43,783 bases of DNA, taken from positions 1-43,783 of the forward strand of contig SVSZ01000005.1 of assembly GCA_015064025.1 (NCBI GenBank), read 5' to 3'. The position numbers and the translations under genes are program-made. The stretch comes from Oscillospiraceae bacterium. GTDB taxonomy: Bacteria; Bacillota; Clostridia; Oscillospirales; CAG-272. Positions 30,604-41,978 of this stretch are shown in pieces (the stretch's first letter is position 1; the number at the start of each line of letters is the position of its first letter). The notes beneath the pieces are model-generated. The model had not been told where the DNA came from and made no database searches. It saw only the letters and a program-made list of their open reading frames with translations.

Positions 30604-30632
30604 TTGACAAGCAGAGAAAAGAATGCTATTAT
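30604..30632 (+). promoter_or_regulatory. Promoter for giant surface protein (TTGACA-N17-TATTAT)
   Basis: -35 30604-30609, -10 30627-30632. Confidence 0.8.
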
Positions 30633-30658
30633 ATTATATATATGTATATCAATTTGAG

Positions 30659-30721
30659 TGCCACCCGACTCCGATGACGGGCGGCGTTTGGATATGTTGC
30701 AGCCTCCTTTCGGGTGAGGCA
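30659..30721 (+). other. Structured 5' leader with two hairpins upstream of the giant gene
   Basis: gccacccg...cgggcggc and gcctc-ctttcgggt-gaggc, between promoter and RBS. Confidence 0.5.
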
Positions 30722-30739
30722 AAAAATACGGAGGTTCTT

Positions 30740-33700
30740 ATGAAGAAATTTCGCAGGATTCTTGCCATGATACTGGCAATCGTCACTGTCCTGACAGTGA
30801 CTCCGTTGAGTGTATTCGCCGATACTTGGCTCGGAACGGAGACCGAAAACACTACAAACACCGATACGAATACAACGTCCACCCACGTTACGCTGACGGT
30901 GGACCCCGAGGTGTTGATTTCCTACATCAAGAGCGGAGACCGCGAAGGACTTCTTTCGGGGATTTCTTTTGACGGCTTGCGCGATATTCTCACGAAAGAA
31001 GAGCTGACAGAGATCTTCCCGGAAAAGGAGATCCAAAAAATTGCGGATATCCTTTTGGGAGAGCTTGAACTTGAGTTTTTGATGCAGTACATCAACGTCG
31101 ATGAGCTTTTGGCAGGTATGGATATGACGGCGTTGATCGAAGCGATCAAGGAGATCGAGAATTTGGAGGACTACGTCAAGAATTACGACAAGCTGATGTC
31201 TTATCTTGACGATGGGGATCTCCTCGGCGTTGTCGATTGCGTTAACACCGATGCGCTGATCAAGGATCACAGCGACAAGCTTTTGCCGCTGGCACTGGAG
31301 CTGGGGGCGGATGAGCTTGCCAAGCTTGTGGACTTGGAGCTTCTGATCGAGAAGGAGATCGTTGACTTTTCGACGGTTTTGAATGAGACGTATCTTAAGA
31401 GCATTACCTTTGACACATTGTACAAGGACTATGTAGACGAGGGAAAACTGATTGAGTACGTGAACAGTAATTTTGAAAGCCTCGGTAAGCAGTTGATCTC
31501 GTACGTCGACGAGGAGGAGCTGAGGGAGCTGTTTTTGATTCCCGAGGAACGCCATCAGTTTGAGCCTTATATACAGTTCTCCGAGCTCCAAGCTTTGATC
31601 GTGCAAAAGGAGATAGAGAACAATCTGACCTCCGCAGAACTGTTGAACTATTTTGAGAAGCCGAAGCTGTTCGCACTTGTCAAAGGTCTGGATTACACAA
31701 AATTTGATCCGTTTGTGGATGAGGATCGGGCAAGAGAGATCATTACCGCTACGTTGGATGACAGCGATAGCTCCAATGATCTGATCGCGCCCTCCAAGCT
31801 GCTCCCGTACATTGATATGGAGCAAAGTGTTTTTTACATGGAGGAGCTGCTTGCGAGCGATCTGATCAGTGACAAGCTGATCGGGGCGTTGCTCGACGGT
31901 GACGCCATTGGCTTTACGGGCGTGAACGAAGAGCGTGTTAAGGAGATCTTTGTTGAATCGGTCGAAAACGGAGATCCTCTGATCGCCCCGGAGAAGCTGG
32001 TTGATTACGTTGTCGATTACGATTTCGACGCTTTGATGAACAGTACGCTCGTTACAGATTCCATTCTCGAGGAATTGGTGAACGAAAACGCTGTCGATCC
32101 CAACACAAAAGAGGTTCTGGATGCTGCCAAAGCCGAGACGATCCTTCTGAACAGGATCGGTGCTGCCAAGCTCGTGCCGTACGTGACAAGCTTTAAAACG
32201 GCGGAACTGCTTGCAAGTGATCTGATCACTACGCGCGTTGTCCAGACGCTTCGTAACGACAGCAGTGCGATCAATAATTTTGAAAGCTGTGTTGACAAGA
32301 CCAAGGCAAAGGATATCATCGCAAGCTCTCTTGCCAACGAGGACGAAACGGACGACTTGGTGAACGCAGAGGACCTGCTTCCCTACATCGACATGGAGCA
32401 GTGTTACATCAAGGATATGACCGCATTGATGCAAAGCGACCTTATCACGGACGAAGTGTATACTGCTTTGATCGTGGCAGATGAGCCCGCAATCAATTTT
32501 ATCGGGATGACGAAGGCGGAGAATCCTCCCATTTCGATGTACGATCTTTATCACAGCGATGCAATTGATATCGTCAAAATGCTTGACCATGAGCCTCCCT
32601 TCATTACCCTTGAGGAAATAGAGGAGGTCATCAGCTTTGAAAAGATGCTGCTGGGAGATCCCGAAGAGGGACTTTCCCCGATTGACAAGGACCTCATTTT
32701 GGGGACTCATCAGATCTTCCACCCGGAGGATATGATCAAAACGTCGGATGACGACGAAGGCCTTTTTTCGCTGGAGGTGCTTGCTGCCAACGAAATTCTG
32801 AAATTGCAAAAGCTGGTGGACGATGCGCCGAACGGATACAGCGACCTTGTGGATGTTGCCGAGCTGAAAAGGCAGATCAATGCGCTTGGGGATAAGAGTG
32901 CGCTGATTGACTGTATTCCGGACAAGGAAGCGGTCGTTCGAAAGATCGGTCCCAAGAAGGCGCTGAATGCAACCGGGCTTGGCTACGGTGTGCTGATCGA
33001 AAAATACGTAACCGACCGCACGGCTTTCTTTGAGGCTCTCGGAATCGAAGATCTTATTTCCGAGATCCAAGCCGCAGGAGAGCTGGAAACGATCTTTGAC
33101 GTAGAGGGACTGATCAATAAGATCGGTGTTGCGAAGCTGCTTAAAATGGTCGACGTTCTTGAGCTTTTTGATCAGCTTCGTGAGAACGGTGGACTTAAAG
33201 AGATCGTAAAGGCAATTGACTACGAGACGTATCTTGCCGTTTTGAACTATGCCCTGAGTATTCTGGAAAAGAATATCTGCAAGATCAAAATCAACGGCAC
33301 CGAGATCACGGAAAAGGACGGTAATCTTCTTTCCTTCAAAACTGCGACGTTGGTTGACCTTCTGATGGATGACGTTCTTCCCGAGCTTGATGATATCATC
33401 AACATGGGGGACGACGGAAAGGTCTTCAGTGCGAGCGTATCGCTTACTTATGCGTCTGAGGAGACGAACGGCGAGGAGAAGACGAAGGAAATCGTTTTTG
33501 ATGCCGTTCTCGGAAGCGGTGTGGAACGCGTGAGAAATGCCGCGAAGAGATTCAAGGAGCTCATTGAAAAGTACCTCAAACAAGATTTCACGGACGGTAT
33601 TCTGACTTTGGATATCAGAATGCCGAGCAAATTCGCAAGCGCGATCCGCGTAGCGCTTGAAAAGCTTTCTGCCGAGGGAGATCCCGAGCTTGAAAAGCTG

Positions 33701-36700
33701 AAGAATGACATTCTGGATCTTTACGATGCGAATGCCAATGACGTAACTGCGTTTATCGATGGCTTGACCTTGGAGCAGTTTGTAGCGCTTATGGAGGCGA
33801 TTGATGCATCCCGATTCGACGATGCATACGGCGAGGTGATCACAAACGATTACGTACAGACCTTGCTTGAGTACATCAAGGAAAAAACGGGATACGATTT
33901 TACCAATCTGACTCCCGCGGATCTTCTGATCAAGGCAGGGGAGCTTCCCACTCTGGAGTCTCTTTGCGACAAGATCGAAACAAAGCTTGATCGCGAGATC
34001 GAGGCGTTTGACCGTTTGCCCGATGAGGATCCTGTGGAGGTTCTTGAAAAGCTTGCTGCAAAAGCGGGGCTCGACGTAGATCTGAAGAAGCTTTTGGAGG
34101 ACGCAGCGGCATCCGAGGATCCCTTGAAGACCCTTTACGAATCTGCGACCGAGCTTGTTGCGAATGCCGGAGATGCCTATGAAGCCGTCAGCTCCCGTGT
34201 TGTCAGAGGCTTGAACAAGCTTCTTTCAAGCAAATACGGTGCAAAGCTTGCGGGCGTTCGATTGATCGATCTTTACGACGGCGAGGGCGTATTCAAGTAC
34301 GCAAAATCCATTTCCTACGATCCGCTCAACGTCATAGAGCGCCTTGTCGATAAGGGAATTTCTCTGCTTGGAAAGAAGCTTGATGAAGAAAAGCTTGCCG
34401 AGGTCTCCAATCTTTTCCTCAGCTATTTTGAGTCTGATGGCGAGTTGAAGCTTGGCGTAGACGTTACGCTTCGCACGACGGATCTTTACAGAATCGATTT
34501 TTACGAGCATGTGGACGGGAAGCTCGTTCCCATTCGCTCCGCCTTCCTGCCTGCAGGCACGGATCTTGCGTTGGTTCAGCCCTATGAAACGGATTCCCTG
34601 CATCAATTTATTGGTTGGGAGGATACCCGCACCGGTGATATTTATCAGAAGATGCCGGATAACGACGTTGAGGTGGTGGCACGCGTCGATGACAATACCT
34701 ACTACGTGTACTTCTACACCCTCGACGGAACGAGACTTGAGGATGTGATTTCTGTTACGGCAGGTGATAAGCTTGCCGATTACACGGATCGCATGGAAGA
34801 GATCGTGCGGAATTACCTTGTTGAGAGCAACGCCTCCGAGGATATTGCCGCCATCGATTGGTTGGTATATTCGGAGGATGGTAAGCATACCCCCTTTGAT
34901 GCATGGAGTACGCCCGTGGGTTCTGCGATGATGCTCACGTGGAAGCACTATTACAACGTGAAGATCGTGAATCCGCTGGATTCCTCTGCGACGATAAGCT
35001 TCCCGGTTCCTGCGGGAACTCCTCTTCGTGAGTTTGAGAAATATGCGGAGATGGTTGGCTTCACAGGCTTTGAGGAGGGCCGTATCACGTGGATACTGCC
35101 CGACGATAAGATTTTTTCTCCCAATACGCCTGTTAACGACAATCTCACCCTCACTTGGTCTGCGTCCTATAAGGTCACGCTCAAGGACGGAAACGGACAG
35201 GAAATCGGATACGTGTCGATCCCGTACGGATATTCTCTTGCTGCTTATATGTCGGATCTTCGTCAGCTTGTGAAGGATGCAGTCGTGAATGATCCCGACG
35301 ACGCATGCATTGAATTTTATAAGGATGGGGTCCTGTTGACCGAGACGGAACTTGGTACTCCTGTGTCTTCGGATCTGACGCTTACCTGGAAGCATTATTA
35401 CAAGGTGACTGTCATAAAGCCCGGAACGGTTAATGCTGCGTTGGGAGAACCGATCAAGCTTTTGGCAGGCAGCGACCTGGCTTCTCTTAAGGCGACTATT
35501 GACGCGCGTGTTATTGCGCTGAATTCCAATTTGAATGCTTCCAACGTTGTGTGGTTGCAGGGAACCGACGAGTTTAATTTCGATACGAAGATCGATAAAA
35601 ACATTACCCTTACGTGGAAGATCGAGTTCCACGTCACGCTGATCGATCCGGCAGATCCCTCCAATCCGATCAAGGTTATTCCTCTTGACGAAGGAAAGGC
35701 GCTGGGGGAAATTCTCGAGGATATGAACAGCGCGGTCAAAGGACTTCAGAAATATTCACAGCTTGAATTGACGCAGGACAATATCAAGTGGTATGATTAT
35801 GCTACTTCCCAAAAAGTGGCTTCGTATGAAGTGCCCACGGAAGACAGAACTCTTTTCTGGAGAATCTTCTTCACAATCAAGGTGGTTGACCGAAACGGTG
35901 ACCAAATAAGTGATTTGAACTTCCCCTTGGAGCTTGACGAAAAGTTGACTTCGGCTGATGTGGCAAAAATTGAAACGAAAGTTCTTGCGCATATCAGAAC
36001 GACCGATCCCTTTGTTCAGCCGGGTGACATTGTTTATAAGGTAGGAAATCAGGAATTCAAAGAAGAAGATTGGTATACGGCTCCGAAGAAGGATCTTACG
36101 ATCTCCTTTGAATACAAAACGTACCATGCTGTCACGATTCAGGATGCAGCAGGAAACCCGGTTCATACCGAGGGAGCTCTTGCCGGGTTTAAACTCTCCG
36201 ATGCGCAAGTTCATACGATCAAAAACAAGATCCGTGGGAAACTTGGACTGAGCGAAGAGCAGCTTCCGGATAAAGATATCATTCTGACCAAACCGGCCAA
36301 CGGTGCCTATGCGGATTTTGATCCTACCTCCGATGCATCTGTTATCACAGAACCGATCACGCTTTCCTGGAGAATTGCGGAGTATTACGACGTTGACGTC
36401 GTTTACTTCGATGAGACGGCGCAGGAGTGGATCTCCAAGGTCTACACTGTAAGAGAGGGCTTCAGTCTTAAAACCTGGGACGTTAACGGTTGGAATGCAG
36501 TAGGGGGACAGGAAAGATCCGTATACGATGCAATGGAGTCCTATCGCTACGGTATTACGGGCGACCCGGCACCGTTTTACGCTTATTTCTGGGCGGAGAT
36601 CAACTCTGCCAACGAGATCAGCGAAACGAATTATGATGCGAATGCCGAAGTTGAGAACGATCTGCGTTTGACGTGGGTGCACAAGTATAACGACGTTTTG

Positions 36701-39700
36701 ATTTCGATTGAGATCGTTTCCCGTCCTGCAGAGCAAGGCGGAAGCGGTGAGCGGTTGGAGCTGATCACAGGTGTCGAGAAGGGTAAGTATCTGAAGGATT
36801 ATCTTTCCATACTTCCGTATGCGCCGCAGGATGGCGGTGATGCTACCAACTACTGGGCATGGCTCAAGAGTGTAACGGATGCGGATAACCCACATCTTGT
36901 CGACTATGTGCATGAGTACGATTTTGCTTGGAGCTTCAACGGTGTGACGTATGAAGAGAGCGCTGAGAATCTCTATCTTACGGAAGCTCTGACGCTTACC
37001 TGGACGTATACGATCGACTATGAGAGCGCGGGGCTTGGCACTGTTGACGGTAGCTATACCGGCGACACCGAGAATGACGACTACGTCATCATTGTGCCCT
37101 CGGATACCAATGACAACTGGGAATTGAAGTGGAACGGTGCTTGGTCGACGAATGCGGAAGTTCCTATGAAGTTCAGAATGTCTGCGGACTTCCTTAGAAA
37201 TGCGTCCCTTGAGGAGCACGGTGTGCGCTTCAGCGCAAGCGACTCCAATGAGAAAATTACACTGTCCGCAGCGCTTCTCGGTAAGCTTTTGGCAAAGGCG
37301 GAAAATGATGAGACGCTGTTCTTAGAGTATACTCCCAATAGTGGAGACCGTAGCTTTGATTTTACTTCAAACAGCGGTGCCGCGTACTATGAACTCGATT
37401 TCCATGATTCCGACGGTGTCATCAAGCTTGGTAATTTCACGACTACGGGTGAGGATCCCGACGTGTTGATTACTCTTCCGTTTGAGAATGCAGTTTCGAA
37501 CACAGGTGGCGTTAAGACCTTCATTTGTGTTGAAGAAGGGACAGGGTATGGCAAGTACGAGATCTTGGCATCCAGTGTGAATGATAAGACGGTTACCTTT
37601 GCCGCACCTCACTTTTCCGCAATTTCGATCGTCAACCAGTATCAGATCAGTATTAAAAAGCCTCATGCTTTGCAGGCAGGCGCTACCTCTTTGACGGCTT
37701 ATCCGTGGAATGAGGATATTGCGACCAACTATCCTATTCTGATCAATTCTACGGACGATAATCTCAACTATTATCCTGCGGGCGCTGAGCTTACGATACA
37801 GTCGTTCTCCGTCATAGCAAACTACAGCTCTAAGATAAAAATCACAAAAACCACTGTTCTGAATAGCAGCTCCGGCGCAGTGTTGGGCGATCTTCCCACG
37901 AGCGGTACCTACACAATGCCTGCACACGCGATTTCTATGCAGTTTGAGTTTGCACCTGTGATCTATTATGTACATTATTATAAGGATAGCTCGCTTCTTG
38001 GAACACTCAGCCGTTCTTATACCGCATACATGGTAGAGAGCCCGGCAGACAAGGCAGCGTTTAAGGCAGAGATTCTGAGCCTTGCAAATCTTGCAAGCCT
38101 TGGCGAGGATTATGCTGATTATACAGCCGAGAACGGTTGGTATTGGGGCGGATTGAACGATGCCCAGATCGGTGTTTCTGACATTACCTTGAATCTTCGC
38201 TGGGAGGATCCGTCACCCGATGATCCCGATGACCCCGACGATCCCGATGATCCCGACAATCCCGACGATCCCGACGATCCCGATGATCCCGATGATCCTG
38301 ACGATCCCGATGGTCCCGATGGTCCCGGCCTTCCCGACATTCCCGAAGGAGATCCGACGGAGAGTAAGATCAAGGTGATCTTCTATGATGAAAAGGGTAA
38401 CCCTGTTAAAGACAAAGACGGTAATGAGTACGTTATGTATCCCATTTCCGTGCTCACAAATCTTTCGGGCTTCCCCACGGTAGAGTCGATTTTTGGTAGC
38501 AATGCAGATCCTGCAAAGATTGCATATTGGGTCAACAAGGCCGACGGAACGCGTATTCCCGACGGATATACCTCTGCACAGTGGCGTGCGCTTGTAGAAA
38601 GCACCGATACTATTGAGGTTTGTTTGACGTATACCTTGCGCTCCTTTGTGATCGGTACGGATGGAAATGCGATCGTGCTCCTTGGGAACACATCGGTAAC
38701 TTCTGCCGTGGTTGGAGCAGAGCTTGTTGTTAAGCTTAAGGGCGGGCTTGATGAAAGGATTCCTACCATATTGATCAAGACGGCATCGGGTGAGACCGTT
38801 GCCAAGGTGATCAATAAGGAGCAGGTGACGATCACAATGCCTGCGGAAGATATCGTGGTTTCCGTGACCTATGCGACTTCTGTCGTTGAGTACGAGGACG
38901 CAGAGGGCAATAAGCAGAGCGCTGTGGAAGGGACCGTTGTTGCCCTGCCTCCGCTTACGCTGACACCCGGTACCTCGATCGATCTCTCCAAGCTCCCGTC
39001 CGAGCTCTTCCTGTCCTCTGTCCAAACAGACAAGGATCAGCTTATTTTGACCTTCTCCTATATTCTCAGAGCCGATTCGGATGCGAAGGCTTTCCTGAAG
39101 GCACTTAACGGCGCTGTTGCGAAGATCGAATATAAGGATAAGTTCATTGTCAACGGTACGGTCTTTGACAGTGCTGAGGAAGCCAAGGCAAGCCTTACGT
39201 CTGATGATGAGTTCAAGGATTGGAGCGAAAAGTATGACAAGAACCTCTATTTTGGCTCTTTTGTTCAGAAGAGTCACTCCTTCCCCTGGATCCTGATCAT
39301 TATTCTTGGCATTCTGCTCTTCTTGATTGCGTTGATCACACTCTTCTACATCCTTTATGTTAAGGGCATTTTGAAGCCTTGCCTCTTCTTGAAGGCAATC
39401 ACCTCGATCGTATCCGTGTTCTTTGCACTTTGCATGGCTCTCGCTGCGGCATGGCTGTGGATCTTGCGCAAATTCGGATATGATGAGCAGAGACTTCTTA
39501 AAAAGTATCCGCTCCTGAAGTCTCGCAAGAAGAATCAGGCTACGCTTGAAGATTCCTTGGATGCATTGAAGAACGTGGATCCCGCATTTGAGAATACCGC
39601 AAGCACGGTGTCTGTTGAACGGATCGCGCAAAAAACGCTTTCTGTTGAGACTGAAATGTATTCCTTCGAGGAAACGACCGAGGAAACGACCGAGGAAACG

Positions 39701-39784
39701 ACCGAGGAAGCAACCGAGGAGACGACCGAGGAAACAACCGAGGAAACAACCGAGAAAACGACCGAGGAAACAACCGAGGAATAA
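30740..39784 (+). CDS. Giant (~3,014 aa) secreted, membrane-anchored multi-repeat surface protein
   Basis: ATG at 30740 with GGAGG; signal peptide MKKFRRILAMILAIVTVLTVTPLSVFADT; N-terminal Leu/Asp-rich helical repeats; about nine LTLTW-type beta repeats; DPD linker; two C-terminal TMs; TTEE-repeat tail. No LPXTG motif seen. ORF-track start 30623 would add a non-signal extension. Confidence 0.9.
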   Translation: MKKFRRILAMILAIVTVLTVTPLSVFADTWLGTETENTTNTDTNTTSTHVTLTVDPEVLISYIKSGDREGLLSGISFDGLRDILTKEELTEIFPEKEIQKIADILLGELELEFLMQYINVDELLAGMDMTALIEAIKEIENLEDYVKNYDKLMSYLDDGDLLGVVDCVNTDALIKDHSDKLLPLALELGADELAKLVDLELLIEKEIVDFSTVLNETYLKSITFDTLYKDYVDEGKLIEYVNSNFESLGKQLISYVDEEELRELFLIPEERHQFEPYIQFSELQALIVQKEIENNLTSAELLNYFEKPKLFALVKGLDYTKFDPFVDEDRAREIITATLDDSDSSNDLIAPSKLLPYIDMEQSVFYMEELLASDLISDKLIGALLDGDAIGFTGVNEERVKEIFVESVENGDPLIAPEKLVDYVVDYDFDALMNSTLVTDSILEELVNENAVDPNTKEVLDAAKAETILLNRIGAAKLVPYVTSFKTAELLASDLITTRVVQTLRNDSSAINNFESCVDKTKAKDIIASSLANEDETDDLVNAEDLLPYIDMEQCYIKDMTALMQSDLITDEVYTALIVADEPAINFIGMTKAENPPISMYDLYHSDAIDIVKMLDHEPPFITLEEIEEVISFEKMLLGDPEEGLSPIDKDLILGTHQIFHPEDMIKTSDDDEGLFSLEVLAANEILKLQKLVDDAPNGYSDLVDVAELKRQINALGDKSALIDCIPDKEAVVRKIGPKKALNATGLGYGVLIEKYVTDRTAFFEALGIEDLISEIQAAGELETIFDVEGLINKIGVAKLLKMVDVLELFDQLRENGGLKEIVKAIDYETYLAVLNYALSILEKNICKIKINGTEITEKDGNLLSFKTATLVDLLMDDVLPELDDIINMGDDGKVFSASVSLTYASEETNGEEKTKEIVFDAVLGSGVERVRNAAKRFKELIEKYLKQDFTDGILTLDIRMPSKFASAIRVALEKLSAEGDPELEKLKNDILDLYDANANDVTAFIDGLTLEQFVALMEAIDASRFDDAYGEVITNDYVQTLLEYIKEKTGYDFTNLTPADLLIKAGELPTLESLCDKIETKLDREIEAFDRLPDEDPVEVLEKLAAKAGLDVDLKKLLEDAAASEDPLKTLYESATELVANAGDAYEAVSSRVVRGLNKLLSSKYGAKLAGVRLIDLYDGEGVFKYAKSISYDPLNVIERLVDKGISLLGKKLDEEKLAEVSNLFLSYFESDGELKLGVDVTLRTTDLYRIDFYEHVDGKLVPIRSAFLPAGTDLALVQPYETDSLHQFIGWEDTRTGDIYQKMPDNDVEVVARVDDNTYYVYFYTLDGTRLEDVISVTAGDKLADYTDRMEEIVRNYLVESNASEDIAAIDWLVYSEDGKHTPFDAWSTPVGSAMMLTWKHYYNVKIVNPLDSSATISFPVPAGTPLREFEKYAEMVGFTGFEEGRITWILPDDKIFSPNTPVNDNLTLTWSASYKVTLKDGNGQEIGYVSIPYGYSLAAYMSDLRQLVKDAVVNDPDDACIEFYKDGVLLTETELGTPVSSDLTLTWKHYYKVTVIKPGTVNAALGEPIKLLAGSDLASLKATIDARVIALNSNLNASNVVWLQGTDEFNFDTKIDKNITLTWKIEFHVTLIDPADPSNPIKVIPLDEGKALGEILEDMNSAVKGLQKYSQLELTQDNIKWYDYATSQKVASYEVPTEDRTLFWRIFFTIKVVDRNGDQISDLNFPLELDEKLTSADVAKIETKVLAHIRTTDPFVQPGDIVYKVGNQEFKEEDWYTAPKKDLTISFEYKTYHAVTIQDAAGNPVHTEGALAGFKLSDAQVHTIKNKIRGKLGLSEEQLPDKDIILTKPANGAYADFDPTSDASVITEPITLSWRIAEYYDVDVVYFDETAQEWISKVYTVREGFSLKTWDVNGWNAVGGQERSVYDAMESYRYGITGDPAPFYAYFWAEINSANEISETNYDANAEVENDLRLTWVHKYNDVLISIEIVSRPAEQGGSGERLELITGVEKGKYLKDYLSILPYAPQDGGDATNYWAWLKSVTDADNPHLVDYVHEYDFAWSFNGVTYEESAENLYLTEALTLTWTYTIDYESAGLGTVDGSYTGDTENDDYVIIVPSDTNDNWELKWNGAWSTNAEVPMKFRMSADFLRNASLEEHGVRFSASDSNEKITLSAALLGKLLAKAENDETLFLEYTPNSGDRSFDFTSNSGAAYYELDFHDSDGVIKLGNFTTTGEDPDVLITLPFENAVSNTGGVKTFICVEEGTGYGKYEILASSVNDKTVTFAAPHFSAISIVNQYQISIKKPHALQAGATSLTAYPWNEDIATNYPILINSTDDNLNYYPAGAELTIQSFSVIANYSSKIKITKTTVLNSSSGAVLGDLPTSGTYTMPAHAISMQFEFAPVIYYVHYYKDSSLLGTLSRSYTAYMVESPADKAAFKAEILSLANLASLGEDYADYTAENGWYWGGLNDAQIGVSDITLNLRWEDPSPDDPDDPDDPDDPDNPDDPDDPDDPDDPDDPDGPDGPGLPDIPEGDPTESKIKVIFYDEKGNPVKDKDGNEYVMYPISVLTNLSGFPTVESIFGSNADPAKIAYWVNKADGTRIPDGYTSAQWRALVESTDTIEVCLTYTLRSFVIGTDGNAIVLLGNTSVTSAVVGAELVVKLKGGLDERIPTILIKTASGETVAKVINKEQVTITMPAEDIVVSVTYATSVVEYEDAEGNKQSAVEGTVVALPPLTLTPGTSIDLSKLPSELFLSSVQTDKDQLILTFSYILRADSDAKAFLKALNGAVAKIEYKDKFIVNGTVFDSAEEAKASLTSDDEFKDWSEKYDKNLYFGSFVQKSHSFPWILIIILGILLFLIALITLFYILYVKGILKPCLFLKAITSIVSVFFALCMALAAAWLWILRKFGYDEQRLLKKYPLLKSRKKNQATLEDSLDALKNVDPAFENTASTVSVERIAQKTLSVETEMYSFEETTEETTEETTEEATEETTEETTEETTEKTTEETTEE
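31712..32512 (+). repeat. Diverged protein-level repeats within giant gene (LLPYIDMEQ...SDLITD units)
   Basis: KAKDIIA..L..ED..DDLV..EDLLPYIDMEQ...M..L..SDLITD....AL recurs as two close and two more diverged copies. Confidence 0.7.
34470..37020 (+). repeat. Tandem diverged beta-type repeats (~70-110 aa each) in the giant protein
   Basis: Unit ends LTLTWKHYYxVTV recur near nt 34930, 35143, 35377, 35602, 35849, 36092, 36358, 36664, 36990. Confidence 0.75.
38212..38340 (+). repeat. DPD-repeat linker (gaycccgay-type microsatellite)
   Basis: Encodes SPDDPDDPDDPDDPDNPDDPDDPDDPDDPDDPDGPDGPGLP. Confidence 0.9.
39668..39783 (+). repeat. 12-bp tandem repeat (gaggaaacgacc / gaggaaacaacc) encoding (TEET) cytoplasmic tail
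   Basis: Encodes EETTEETTEETTEEATEETTEETTEETTEKTTEETTEE at the extreme C-terminus. Confidence 0.92.
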
Positions 39785-39873: not shown

Positions 39874-40611
39874 TTGGATGAAGATATGAAATTTTCACAG
39901 CATTATACCGTTAAATGGCACGATACAGATCTGAACCGATGTGTCACCCCCTCGGCAATTCTTATGTACATGCAGGAAACGGCAGGAGAACATCTCAAAT
40001 CGCTTCTTTTTTCCATGGACGAGCTTCGCGATAGGATGGGACTGGCTTTTCTTTTGAGCAGTATCTCCATTTATATACACGAGCCGCTCTATGCCGATGA
40101 TGAGATCGACGTGCAGACGTGGGTTTGCGAAAGCAGAGGGCTATCCTATAACCGTTGCTTCTGTATTCTTCGCGACGGGAAAACGATTGCCGAAGCGAGC
40201 TCGGTGTGGGGGTTGTTGGATATTGCCAATCACCGCTTGTTGAAGGCGGATGAATCTCCGTTTAAGGCAGAGCCTGAGGCGCCCTGCCAACTGCCGTTAC
40301 CAAGACGTCTTCAGGTGTTGCGCACCGAGGACATGGAGGAGGCGGGAGATCGACGCATTGTGTATTCGGATATCGATTATAACGGGCACATGAACAACAC
40401 ACATTATCCCAATCTTTTGTGTGATTTTACCCCGGACATCTGCAAGCGCCGTGTCAAGGGCTTGATGCTTTCCTTCTTACATGAGGCGGCGTACGGCCAC
40501 ACACTGCGCGTCTATCGCGGAGAAAGCGCGGACGGTTTGCGTTTTCGAATCGTTGATGCGGACGGCACGCTTTGTACGGAGGCTTTACTTTGTACAGAGG
40601 AAATACAATAA
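39874..40611 (+). CDS. Acyl-ACP thioesterase
   Basis: Hotdog thioesterase pattern: VKWHDTDLNRCVTPSAILMYMQETAGEH...FLLSSISIYIHEPLYADDEIDVQTWVCESRGLSYNRCFCI; second hotdog YSDIDYNGHMNNTHYPNLLCD. Start could be the second ATG at 39886. Confidence 0.85.
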   Translation: MDEDMKFSQHYTVKWHDTDLNRCVTPSAILMYMQETAGEHLKSLLFSMDELRDRMGLAFLLSSISIYIHEPLYADDEIDVQTWVCESRGLSYNRCFCILRDGKTIAEASSVWGLLDIANHRLLKADESPFKAEPEAPCQLPLPRRLQVLRTEDMEEAGDRRIVYSDIDYNGHMNNTHYPNLLCDFTPDICKRRVKGLMLSFLHEAAYGHTLRVYRGESADGLRFRIVDADGTLCTEALLCTEEIQ

Positions 40612-40650
40612 AAAAAGTAACCCAAATGCGTTTGGGTTACTTTTTTATTG
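40606..40650. terminator. Bidirectional intrinsic terminator
   Basis: caataaaaaaagtaacccaaa-tgcg-tttgggttacttttttattg, about 20 bp near-perfect stem. Confidence 0.9.
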
Positions 40651-40659
40651 TATCGCGAA

Positions 40660-41041
40660 AACCCCGCCATAGTGGCGGGGTTCAAAAAAGGGTATTGCCG
40701 ATAAGGAGAAGTGAAATGAGAAAAAGGGGTAGCATGTTTTTGATGAAGAGCCCTCCTCCGGGAGGAGGGGGGTCACGGTGAAACCGTGACGGGGAGGAGC
40801 CCGCGCGACTGTGAGTACGCACACCCAAGCGGTGTGTCATTTTGTTTCTACACGCAGGCTCCTTCTGTCATTTTGCAAGCAAAATGCCACCTCCCTCTCG
40901 GAGGGAGGCTCAATAGCAACCCGTTTACGGGTTGCAAGTATCCGTTGCATGGCTGGCAGGCCAATCTCAAGCACACTTGTGTGCAGCCGGTATCGGGTAG
41001 GGCTATGCCCGAAAATGAAATACCACCCGCTATGCGGGTGG
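40660..41041. repeat. Array of about ten distinct short hairpins
   Basis: Successive perfect inverted repeats: 40660-40682, 40751-40769, 40772-40790, 40820-40836, 40869-40886, 40890-40908, 40916-40935, 40971-40984, 40993-41012, 41023-41041. Confidence 0.85.
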
Positions 41042-41048
41042 ATATTTA

Positions 41049-41978
41049 TTATGATTTCAGAAGTGCTTCAAAATGATCTGTGGCAAGCTTCATCTGCTTC
41101 ATACAGCTTTTGGCGTAGTCGGTAAGCTCGCGGCTTTCTCTGTTTCTTGCGATGTTCTCTGTAGGAAGGCCGCATAGGTTCATATGGTACTTCGCGGTCA
41201 AGGGGTAGGGAAGTCCTACCTCGGTAAAGCCGAAGGTGCCGATGACGGATTGGATGAGCTCAGCACGAGCGGGCTCTTTATCAAAGCTCTTGCCGAGCCA
41301 TGCGTAGAGTGCGGGGTGAAAATTACACATAATACCGCAATATCCGTCGCCACCGCTCCGCATGCTTTCAAGAAGCGTTTGGCAGTTGGCGTTGAGAAGC
41401 TTGAAATGGCTCCCCTTAAGCTGCTTACAGCGCTCCGCGATGAGAGCCGCGTCACAGCACGTGTCCTTCATATAGTAGAATCTTCCTGTAGAGAGACACC
41501 AGTCGAGAATACGTGGCGTGACGAGACGTTTGTAAGGATGCGGACACTCGTAGAGCCCAAGCTTTATATCCCCCGGAAGTCTTTCGAGCAGTCGCTCTGC
41601 ATTTTGAATAAAGACGTCATCCCCACGGTTTTCCGGGTCGAGGCGGTTTGTGATCAGGATCAGTGCGTCGGTGCCGGAGGCTGCAATAGCACAAAGCTCC
41701 TCTACTTGTTCATCGAAGCCATCGCTTGTGTGACCCGAGGAAACAACCGTAAATTTTCTGTTGTGCGCTCTTTCAAGCTCCTTGGCACGTGCGTATACCG
41801 TACGGTTGAGCGCAACCTTTTCTTCAAGGGAAAGATAGAAGATCTCGCTGGACTGACAAACGGCAAATATGCCGTCAAGTCCGTTTTCAAAATACCAGTC
41901 TACGTATTTTTTTGCGGTTTCAAGATCCACACTGCCGTCCTTTTTGTAGGGGGTGATCATTGTTGTAAGAATTTCCAT
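41049..41978 (-). CDS. Dihydrodipicolinate synthase / N-acetylneuraminate lyase family aldolase
   Basis: MEILTTMITPYKKDGSVDLETAKKYVDWYFENGLDGIFAVCQSSE; YECPHPYKR (Tyr) and FYYMKDTCCD (Schiff-base Lys). Start at ATG 41978 with CGGAGG RBS, not 42044. Confidence 0.88.
   Translation of the reverse strand: MEILTTMITPYKKDGSVDLETAKKYVDWYFENGLDGIFAVCQSSEIFYLSLEEKVALNRTVYARAKELERAHNRKFTVVSSGHTSDGFDEQVEELCAIAASGTDALILITNRLDPENRGDDVFIQNAERLLERLPGDIKLGLYECPHPYKRLVTPRILDWCLSTGRFYYMKDTCCDAALIAERCKQLKGSHFKLLNANCQTLLESMRSGGDGYCGIMCNFHPALYAWLGKSFDKEPARAELIQSVIGTFGFTEVGLPYPLTAKYHMNLCGLPTENIARNRESRELTDYAKSCMKQMKLATDHFEALLKS

Follow-up and report, generated by a model that had tools for sequence, protein, structure and literature searches.

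A hairpin-rich locus in a gut clostridium is very probably a PATE derived from a TnpA-only IS200 transposon

Introduction

PATEs (palindrome-associated transposable elements), known from Haloquadratum walsbyi (PMC3119063) and Halanaerobium (PMC7290912), are defined by the near-terminal palindromes of IS605-type transposons, together with the lack of inverted repeats, of target duplication and of a transposase (PMC3119063). REPs are also thought to be moved by a transposase related to that of IS200 (PMC2817692, PMC8266576). In ISPpu9 of Pseudomonas putida, control of the transposase mRNA acts on its 5'UTR, through structure and through sRNAs from loci upstream and downstream of the transposase gene (PMC8450116).

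We analyzed a 43,783-nt stretch of DNA from an Oscillospiraceae bacterium (the window), in which positions 40660–41041 had been singled out as an array of different perfect hairpins. Our comparisons indicate that this region is very probably a PATE, namely a derivative of a TnpA-only IS200 element that would be mobilised in trans, sits behind a terminator and has captured units in its middle. The nature of the locus is thereby largely resolved: it is of a known kind (PATE/IS200), and what sets it apart is its filling and its striking insertion site.

Hairpin content and dispersed copies

Positions 40660–41041 hold nine non-overlapping perfect hairpins (arms ≥ 6, loops 1–5) covering 168 of 382 bases, compared with a chance mean of 0.49 and a maximum of four in 300 dinucleotide shuffles, and no other tile of the window ever has more than four. 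The predicted cluster is therefore real, and its tenth member (tcggg/cccga, 40993–40997 and 41008–41012) also exists, with 5-bp arms and a longer loop than the other hairpins. The description of the interval as consisting almost wholly of inverted repeats went too far, as perfect stems and loops make up 44% of it. Nor is it one array of uniform geometry: the hairpins are not equivalent and sort into four groups, namely the left-end (LE) hairpin, two inverted REP-like units with their spacer, a tnpA remnant, and the right-end (RE) hairpins. Their arm sequences are unrelated because the hairpins come from unrelated parts of the element. With unrelated arms and no identical repeats at regular spacing, a CRISPR array was rejected, as had been foreseen, and the exclusion of an integron likewise holds.

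The real extent of the object is larger, comprising a 401-bp element at 40650–41050 (plus strand) that we delimited by its dispersed copies, by comparison of LE and RE flanks, and by LE–RE pairing. A search of its own genome with the element stretch gave 11 matches (85–100% identity, about 127–421 bp each), corresponding to about 8–11 copies, and additional short matches to the inner part only. The copies are 85–99% identical and lie in unrelated contexts. Many matches stop at contig ends, as expected because the repeat breaks the assembly. Among relatives across the order, the left end (query ∼5–71) and the right end (query ∼280–411) are the same and the middles are variable, which bears out the proposal of a composite dispersed element of this lineage. 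The RE pattern matches at least 120 stretches, nearly all from gut Clostridia, and among the matches is a record of Hydrogenoanaerobacterium saccharovorans strain An564, a cultured relative; many of the compared genomes are MAGs, in which collapsed copies are undercounted. Plasmids yielded one weak match, to the RE part only (Subdoligranulum), and no similar DNA was found in phages.

Orthologues of the window gene downstream of the element end without it in four congeners (L227, L229, L230, and L232). A search for an exact empty site with the joined flanks in 35 congeners found none; gene order is not conserved there, and only the downstream gene is comparable. Upstream in the window, positions 30623–39784 carry a 3053-aa ORF that contains long repeats and, at the C-terminal side, a stretch of TTEETTEE; it may encode a large surface protein.

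Ends shared with TnpA-encoding elements

The LE (40650–40715, plus strand) contains the hairpin AACCCCGCCA-TAG-TGGCGGGGTT at 40660–40682 and is common to six TnpA-encoding elements (L030, L041, L042, L049, L067, and L069). The RE (40918–41050, plus strand) is conserved order-wide, with hairpins at 40971–40984 and 40993–41012, a terminal hairpin at 41023–41041, and the terminus TTTATT. In related Clostridia, elements that share both ends and encode TnpA measure 700–721 bp. An ORF lies between the same ends in L030, L041, L042, and L049, intact in L049; in L030 and L042 it is interrupted by stop codons or a broken frame. Its product is an IS200-type Y1 transposase (Pfam Y1_Tnp PF01797, E = 6.5e-42; nearest solved structure 2ec2, E = 1.8e-29) with HxH at residues 65–67 and Tyr 129 within EYI. 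Since the window copy shares its LE and RE with these elements, it is a non-autonomous IS200 derivative; an autonomous IS200 was rejected, as the intact Y1 HUH transposase gene present in relatives is absent from it.

The trace of tnpA in the 401-bp element amounts to the last ∼22 bp of the gene, and the element is too short for a transposase. Alignment with tnpA-bearing elements (L030, L041, L042, and L049) places this 3'-end remnant at 40916–40940 (plus strand), where it now forms the hairpin GCAACCCGT-TT-ACGGGTTGC; it corresponds to the codons PFMGSK-stop, which read CCCATTTATGGGTAGTAAGTAA in autonomous elements and CCCGTTTACGGGTTGCAAGTA in the window. Relative to the autonomous layout (LE hairpin, anti-SD arm, promoter, 5'UTR, tnpA, RE), the window element keeps its first ∼65–75 bp and, of tnpA, the last ∼25 bp, and lacks everything in between. 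The place is taken by two copies, in opposite orientation, of a separate REP-like hairpin unit that is itself dispersed. With the last tnpA codons still within its RE, the window element thus looks like an internal-deletion derivative of IS200 with a new filling.

LE and RE profiles pair up in 49 distinct elements. Nine of these have the autonomous size of 700–721 bp and contain no REP-like units; the other 40 measure 211–742 bp, with at least one unit present in 22 and an inverted pair in nine. The LE begins with GTATCG or GTATAACG and the RE terminates in TTTATT, so that terminal inverted repeats are absent. The left flank varies (TTTTT, TTATT, TCATT, TTGTT, and others) and the RE terminus is almost constantly ...TTATT, which argues that there is no target duplication. 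A classical MITE was rejected on these two grounds.

The element's own assembly, which is 80% complete, yielded no TnpA with matching ends; the sole TnpA there (L056) is 59% identical and has different ends. The original prediction had proposed to look for a co-occurring transposase or RAYT, and a classical IS200 TnpA does go with these ends, but it is not a RAYT, as it lacks the NP(L/V)(R/K)xG motif (PMC2817692). By sequence inspection, the 5' flanks of L203–L219 and L056 carry the anti-SD arm upstream of the −10 box of the tnpA promoter, so the ribosome-binding site would be hidden only in read-through transcripts and not in those from the element's own promoter. In L035 (∼1630–1713) and L054 (∼1640–1693), the RE hairpin loops contain inserts of roughly 40–60 bp with the outer stem kept, resembling the small repeats inserted in PATE palindromes of Haloquadratum.

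Insertion behind intrinsic terminators

The insertion target in the window is the intrinsic terminator of an upstream thioesterase-like gene (40611–40646, plus strand), which has a 16-bp perfect stem and a T tract. Alignment of LE flanks places the left-flank target motif TTATT (TTNTT in most copies) at 40645–40649 on the plus strand, adjoining the left end. An intrinsic-terminator hairpin (score ≥ 10) lies directly upstream of the LE in 92% of the 49 elements vs 12% of 336 control sites, these being TTNTTG sites from the same loci, and it precedes all eight own-genome LEs (8/8). Inspected by eye, more distant TnpA-encoding relatives also have a terminator upstream of their left hairpin. In L042 and L066, a new element stands directly behind the right-end hairpin of another; with its T-rich tail, the RE hairpin seems to offer further insertions a target akin to a terminator.

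Group IIC introns insert directly downstream of intrinsic terminators, and one was considered here because of the terminator targeting; it was rejected, as the window has no Rfam match, no reverse transcriptase was seen, and the relatives carry Y1_Tnp between the same ends. Our limited search of the open literature found no description of terminator targeting by IS200/IS605, which is weak evidence. Landing behind terminators fits with one large survey, in which IS200 was over-represented between convergent genes (PMC9208149).

Complementarity between the tnpA mRNA 5' end and the right end

In the autonomous relatives, a segment just downstream of the tnpA −10 box, and hence the presumed 5' end of the mRNA, is complementary to an RE segment shortly past the stop codon. 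The complementarity spans 10–20 nt (L049, L201, L203, L206, L212, L056, L219, and others), and pairing is kept where the sequence differs: CCTGCCAGTTACGCAA/TTGCGTGGCTGGCAGG in L049, ATGCTCAAGTCTATTGC/GCAATAGGCTTGAGTAT in L056 from the own genome, and GGTTTGATGCCGTGTTACAA/TTGTAATGCGGTATCAAACT in L219. A pairing score of 11 is reached by 19 of 22 autonomous elements (all except L208, L213, and L215) vs 7% of divergent mismatched pairs, with means of 12.95 and 8.40, respectively. The observed pairing sum was reached in none of 20 000 permutations of REs among elements, which mix close and distant relatives, and its exact significance is to be read with care.

The window element has kept the RE half of this pair and lost the 5' half. 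The retained motif is GGCTGGCAGGCC at 40951–40962 on the plus strand, the complement of the tnpA mRNA 5' end in autonomous relatives (GACCTGCCAGTC). Its conservation is similar in non-autonomous and autonomous REs, and when special retention in non-autonomous copies was looked for, the motif did not differ from the rest of the RE; action of the motif in trans from such copies is possible but not indicated. It may be, though we consider this unlikely, that IS200 elements of gut Clostridia control themselves through direct contact between the tnpA mRNA 5' end and the RE, and that RE transcripts of PATEs act in trans on the transposase mRNA. If this is true, every PATE would function as a regulatory small RNA for the transposase on which it depends.

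A limited literature search returned no description of such pairing. Of the described cases we found, the nearest is ISPpu9 (PMC8450116), in which RNAs from either side of the transposase gene control the 5'UTR of its mRNA. That element is a different IS, inserted in REP sequences, and the direct partner of its downstream sRNA is an antisense sRNA and not the mRNA 5' end (PMC8450116).

The same features bear on a different account of the locus, in which the element is a conserved structured RNA, such as a 3'UTR-type regulator, kept for its RNA function and not for transposition. The original prediction had also named an RNA with many stems as a candidate. The consensus fold of the RE does have six doubly compensated pairs, and the covariation of the RE motif with the tnpA mRNA 5' end among the 22 autonomous relatives would suit an RNA. 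However, an Rfam search of the whole window gave no match, and dispersal at high identity to unrelated loci, behind terminators and with exact ends, is the behaviour of a transposon. Conservation of the RE may also reflect the needs of transposition alone, given that non-autonomous copies conserve the motif to no greater degree than the remainder of the RE. A structured RNA as the reason for the element's maintenance is thus distinctly improbable, and we continue with the reading as a PATE.

Captured REP-like units in the middle

The middle of the element contains two copies of one REP-like unit in opposite orientation. Each comprises a pyrimidine/purine hairpin (A), a second hairpin that varies (B), and a tail of purines with complementarity to the A arm. 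Unit 1, located with a unit finder (40749–40801, plus strand), has its A hairpin at 40751–40769, its B hairpin at 40772–40790, and the tail GGGGAGGAG; unit 2 (40857–40910, minus strand) has its B hairpin at 40869–40886 and its A hairpin at 40890–40908. Between them lies a spacer hairpin, CACACC-CAAGC-GGTGTG (40820–40836, plus strand), which is seen in copies with the full cassette.

In the own genome, the units are found alone, in 57-bp tandem arrays, and inside element copies. The unit survey counted 25 in 391 kb and none in a base shuffle; it covered 20 own-genome stretches, mostly from contigs with matches, and the resulting density is not a genome-wide estimate. Two contigs carry head-to-tail arrays with a 57-bp period and variable inner hairpins (L183:5693–6018 in G000:C127, and L194 in G000:C134). 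A search of the open literature turned up no description of the unit family, which is weak evidence.

The B hairpin of unit 1 occurs in two block forms, GTCACGGT-GAA-ACCGTGAC and GGCACCGC-AA-GCGGTGC, in copies that are otherwise near-identical, and B arms also differ between units (18 arm strings among 32 units). The comparison with the own genome and relatives that had been suggested thus returned one arm-substituted hairpin alongside the dispersed copies. The simplest cause of the block swap is exchange with other dispersed units.

The original prediction went further, holding that selection or a generating mechanism acts on pairing and not on sequence. Arm substitution in unit 1 agrees with the idea, but most stems are homologous, conserved transposon-end hairpins. 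A hairpin-templated generator, for example template switching across quasi-palindromes, could in principle change the B hairpin as a whole paired block with unchanged flanks and yield varied B arms. It would have to account for the whole array, however, and the hairpins of the LE, the RE, and the tnpA remnant are inherited, with homologous counterparts in the autonomous IS. Elsewhere in the genome there are units with GCACCGC-type B hairpins, which could donate the block via gene conversion across the A hairpin and tail that the units have in common. No generator gene was found. Such a generator is neither needed nor shown, and we regard it as very unlikely.

It is just as improbable that mobility resides in the inner units, as a REP/BIME-like family that a RAYT has brought into a resident PATE. 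The units do occur alone, in 57-bp tandem arrays and in BIME-like inverted pairs, but the dispersed copies begin and end at exactly the same LE and RE boundaries, which means that the PATE moved as a whole and carried the units along, and the TnpA of these ends lacks the RAYT motif. In the comparison with REP/BIME-RAYT systems (TnpA-REP; PMC2817692, PMC8266576), the likeness lies in the inner units, short hairpin repeats that occur singly, in tandem, and as inverted pairs, whereas the associated TnpA has no RAYT signature and the LE and RE do not represent a single REP in two inverted copies. A REP/RAYT-BIME identity for the element itself was rejected, as tnpA is flanked by LE and RE and not by inverted REPs, and the nine elements of 700–721 bp are free of units.

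Discussion

As a PATE, the window element resembles the described ones in its near-terminal palindromes of IS200/IS605 type, in the absence of terminal inverted repeats and target duplication, in being too short for a transposase, and in its multiple dispersed copies with shared boundaries. It also shares with them termini in common with IS200/IS605-type transposons and frequent interruption by other small repeats. It differs in occurring in bacterial gut Clostridia, in deriving from the TnpA-only IS200 type, in lying consistently behind intrinsic terminators, and in a middle formed by an inverted REP-like pair with block-swapped hairpins. Its autonomous relatives resemble the IS200 group (TnpA only) in their Y1 HUH transposase, subterminal hairpins, and a 5'UTR inverted repeat over the ribosome-binding site. 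Differences from that group are the missing tnpA of the window copy and a long RE (∼105 bp past the stop codon) with a motif complementary to the tnpA mRNA 5' end.

Because of the distribution of copies, we infer that the element transposes. An IS200-type TnpA supplied in trans would recognise the LE and RE hairpins, folded in single-stranded DNA, and may cut at two places, the RE terminus TTTATT and the 3' side of a motif like TTNTT. The element would then insert without target duplication. Its insertions lie immediately behind intrinsic-terminator hairpins, the T tract of which forms the left flank. Such a site is presumably a harmless spot at gene ends, with low read-through. The diversity of hairpins is made up of transposon-end stems and captured units, the inner hairpin being block-exchanged between copies.

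The odd-looking hairpin array thereby needs no new mechanism to explain it, and the analysis identifies a mobile family that is widespread in gut Clostridia and breaks assemblies. Two testable rules emerge for IS200 elements of this group, namely a position right behind an intrinsic terminator and covariation of the tnpA mRNA 5' end with the RE. The second of these would make the regulation of near-silent IS200 transposases directly testable.
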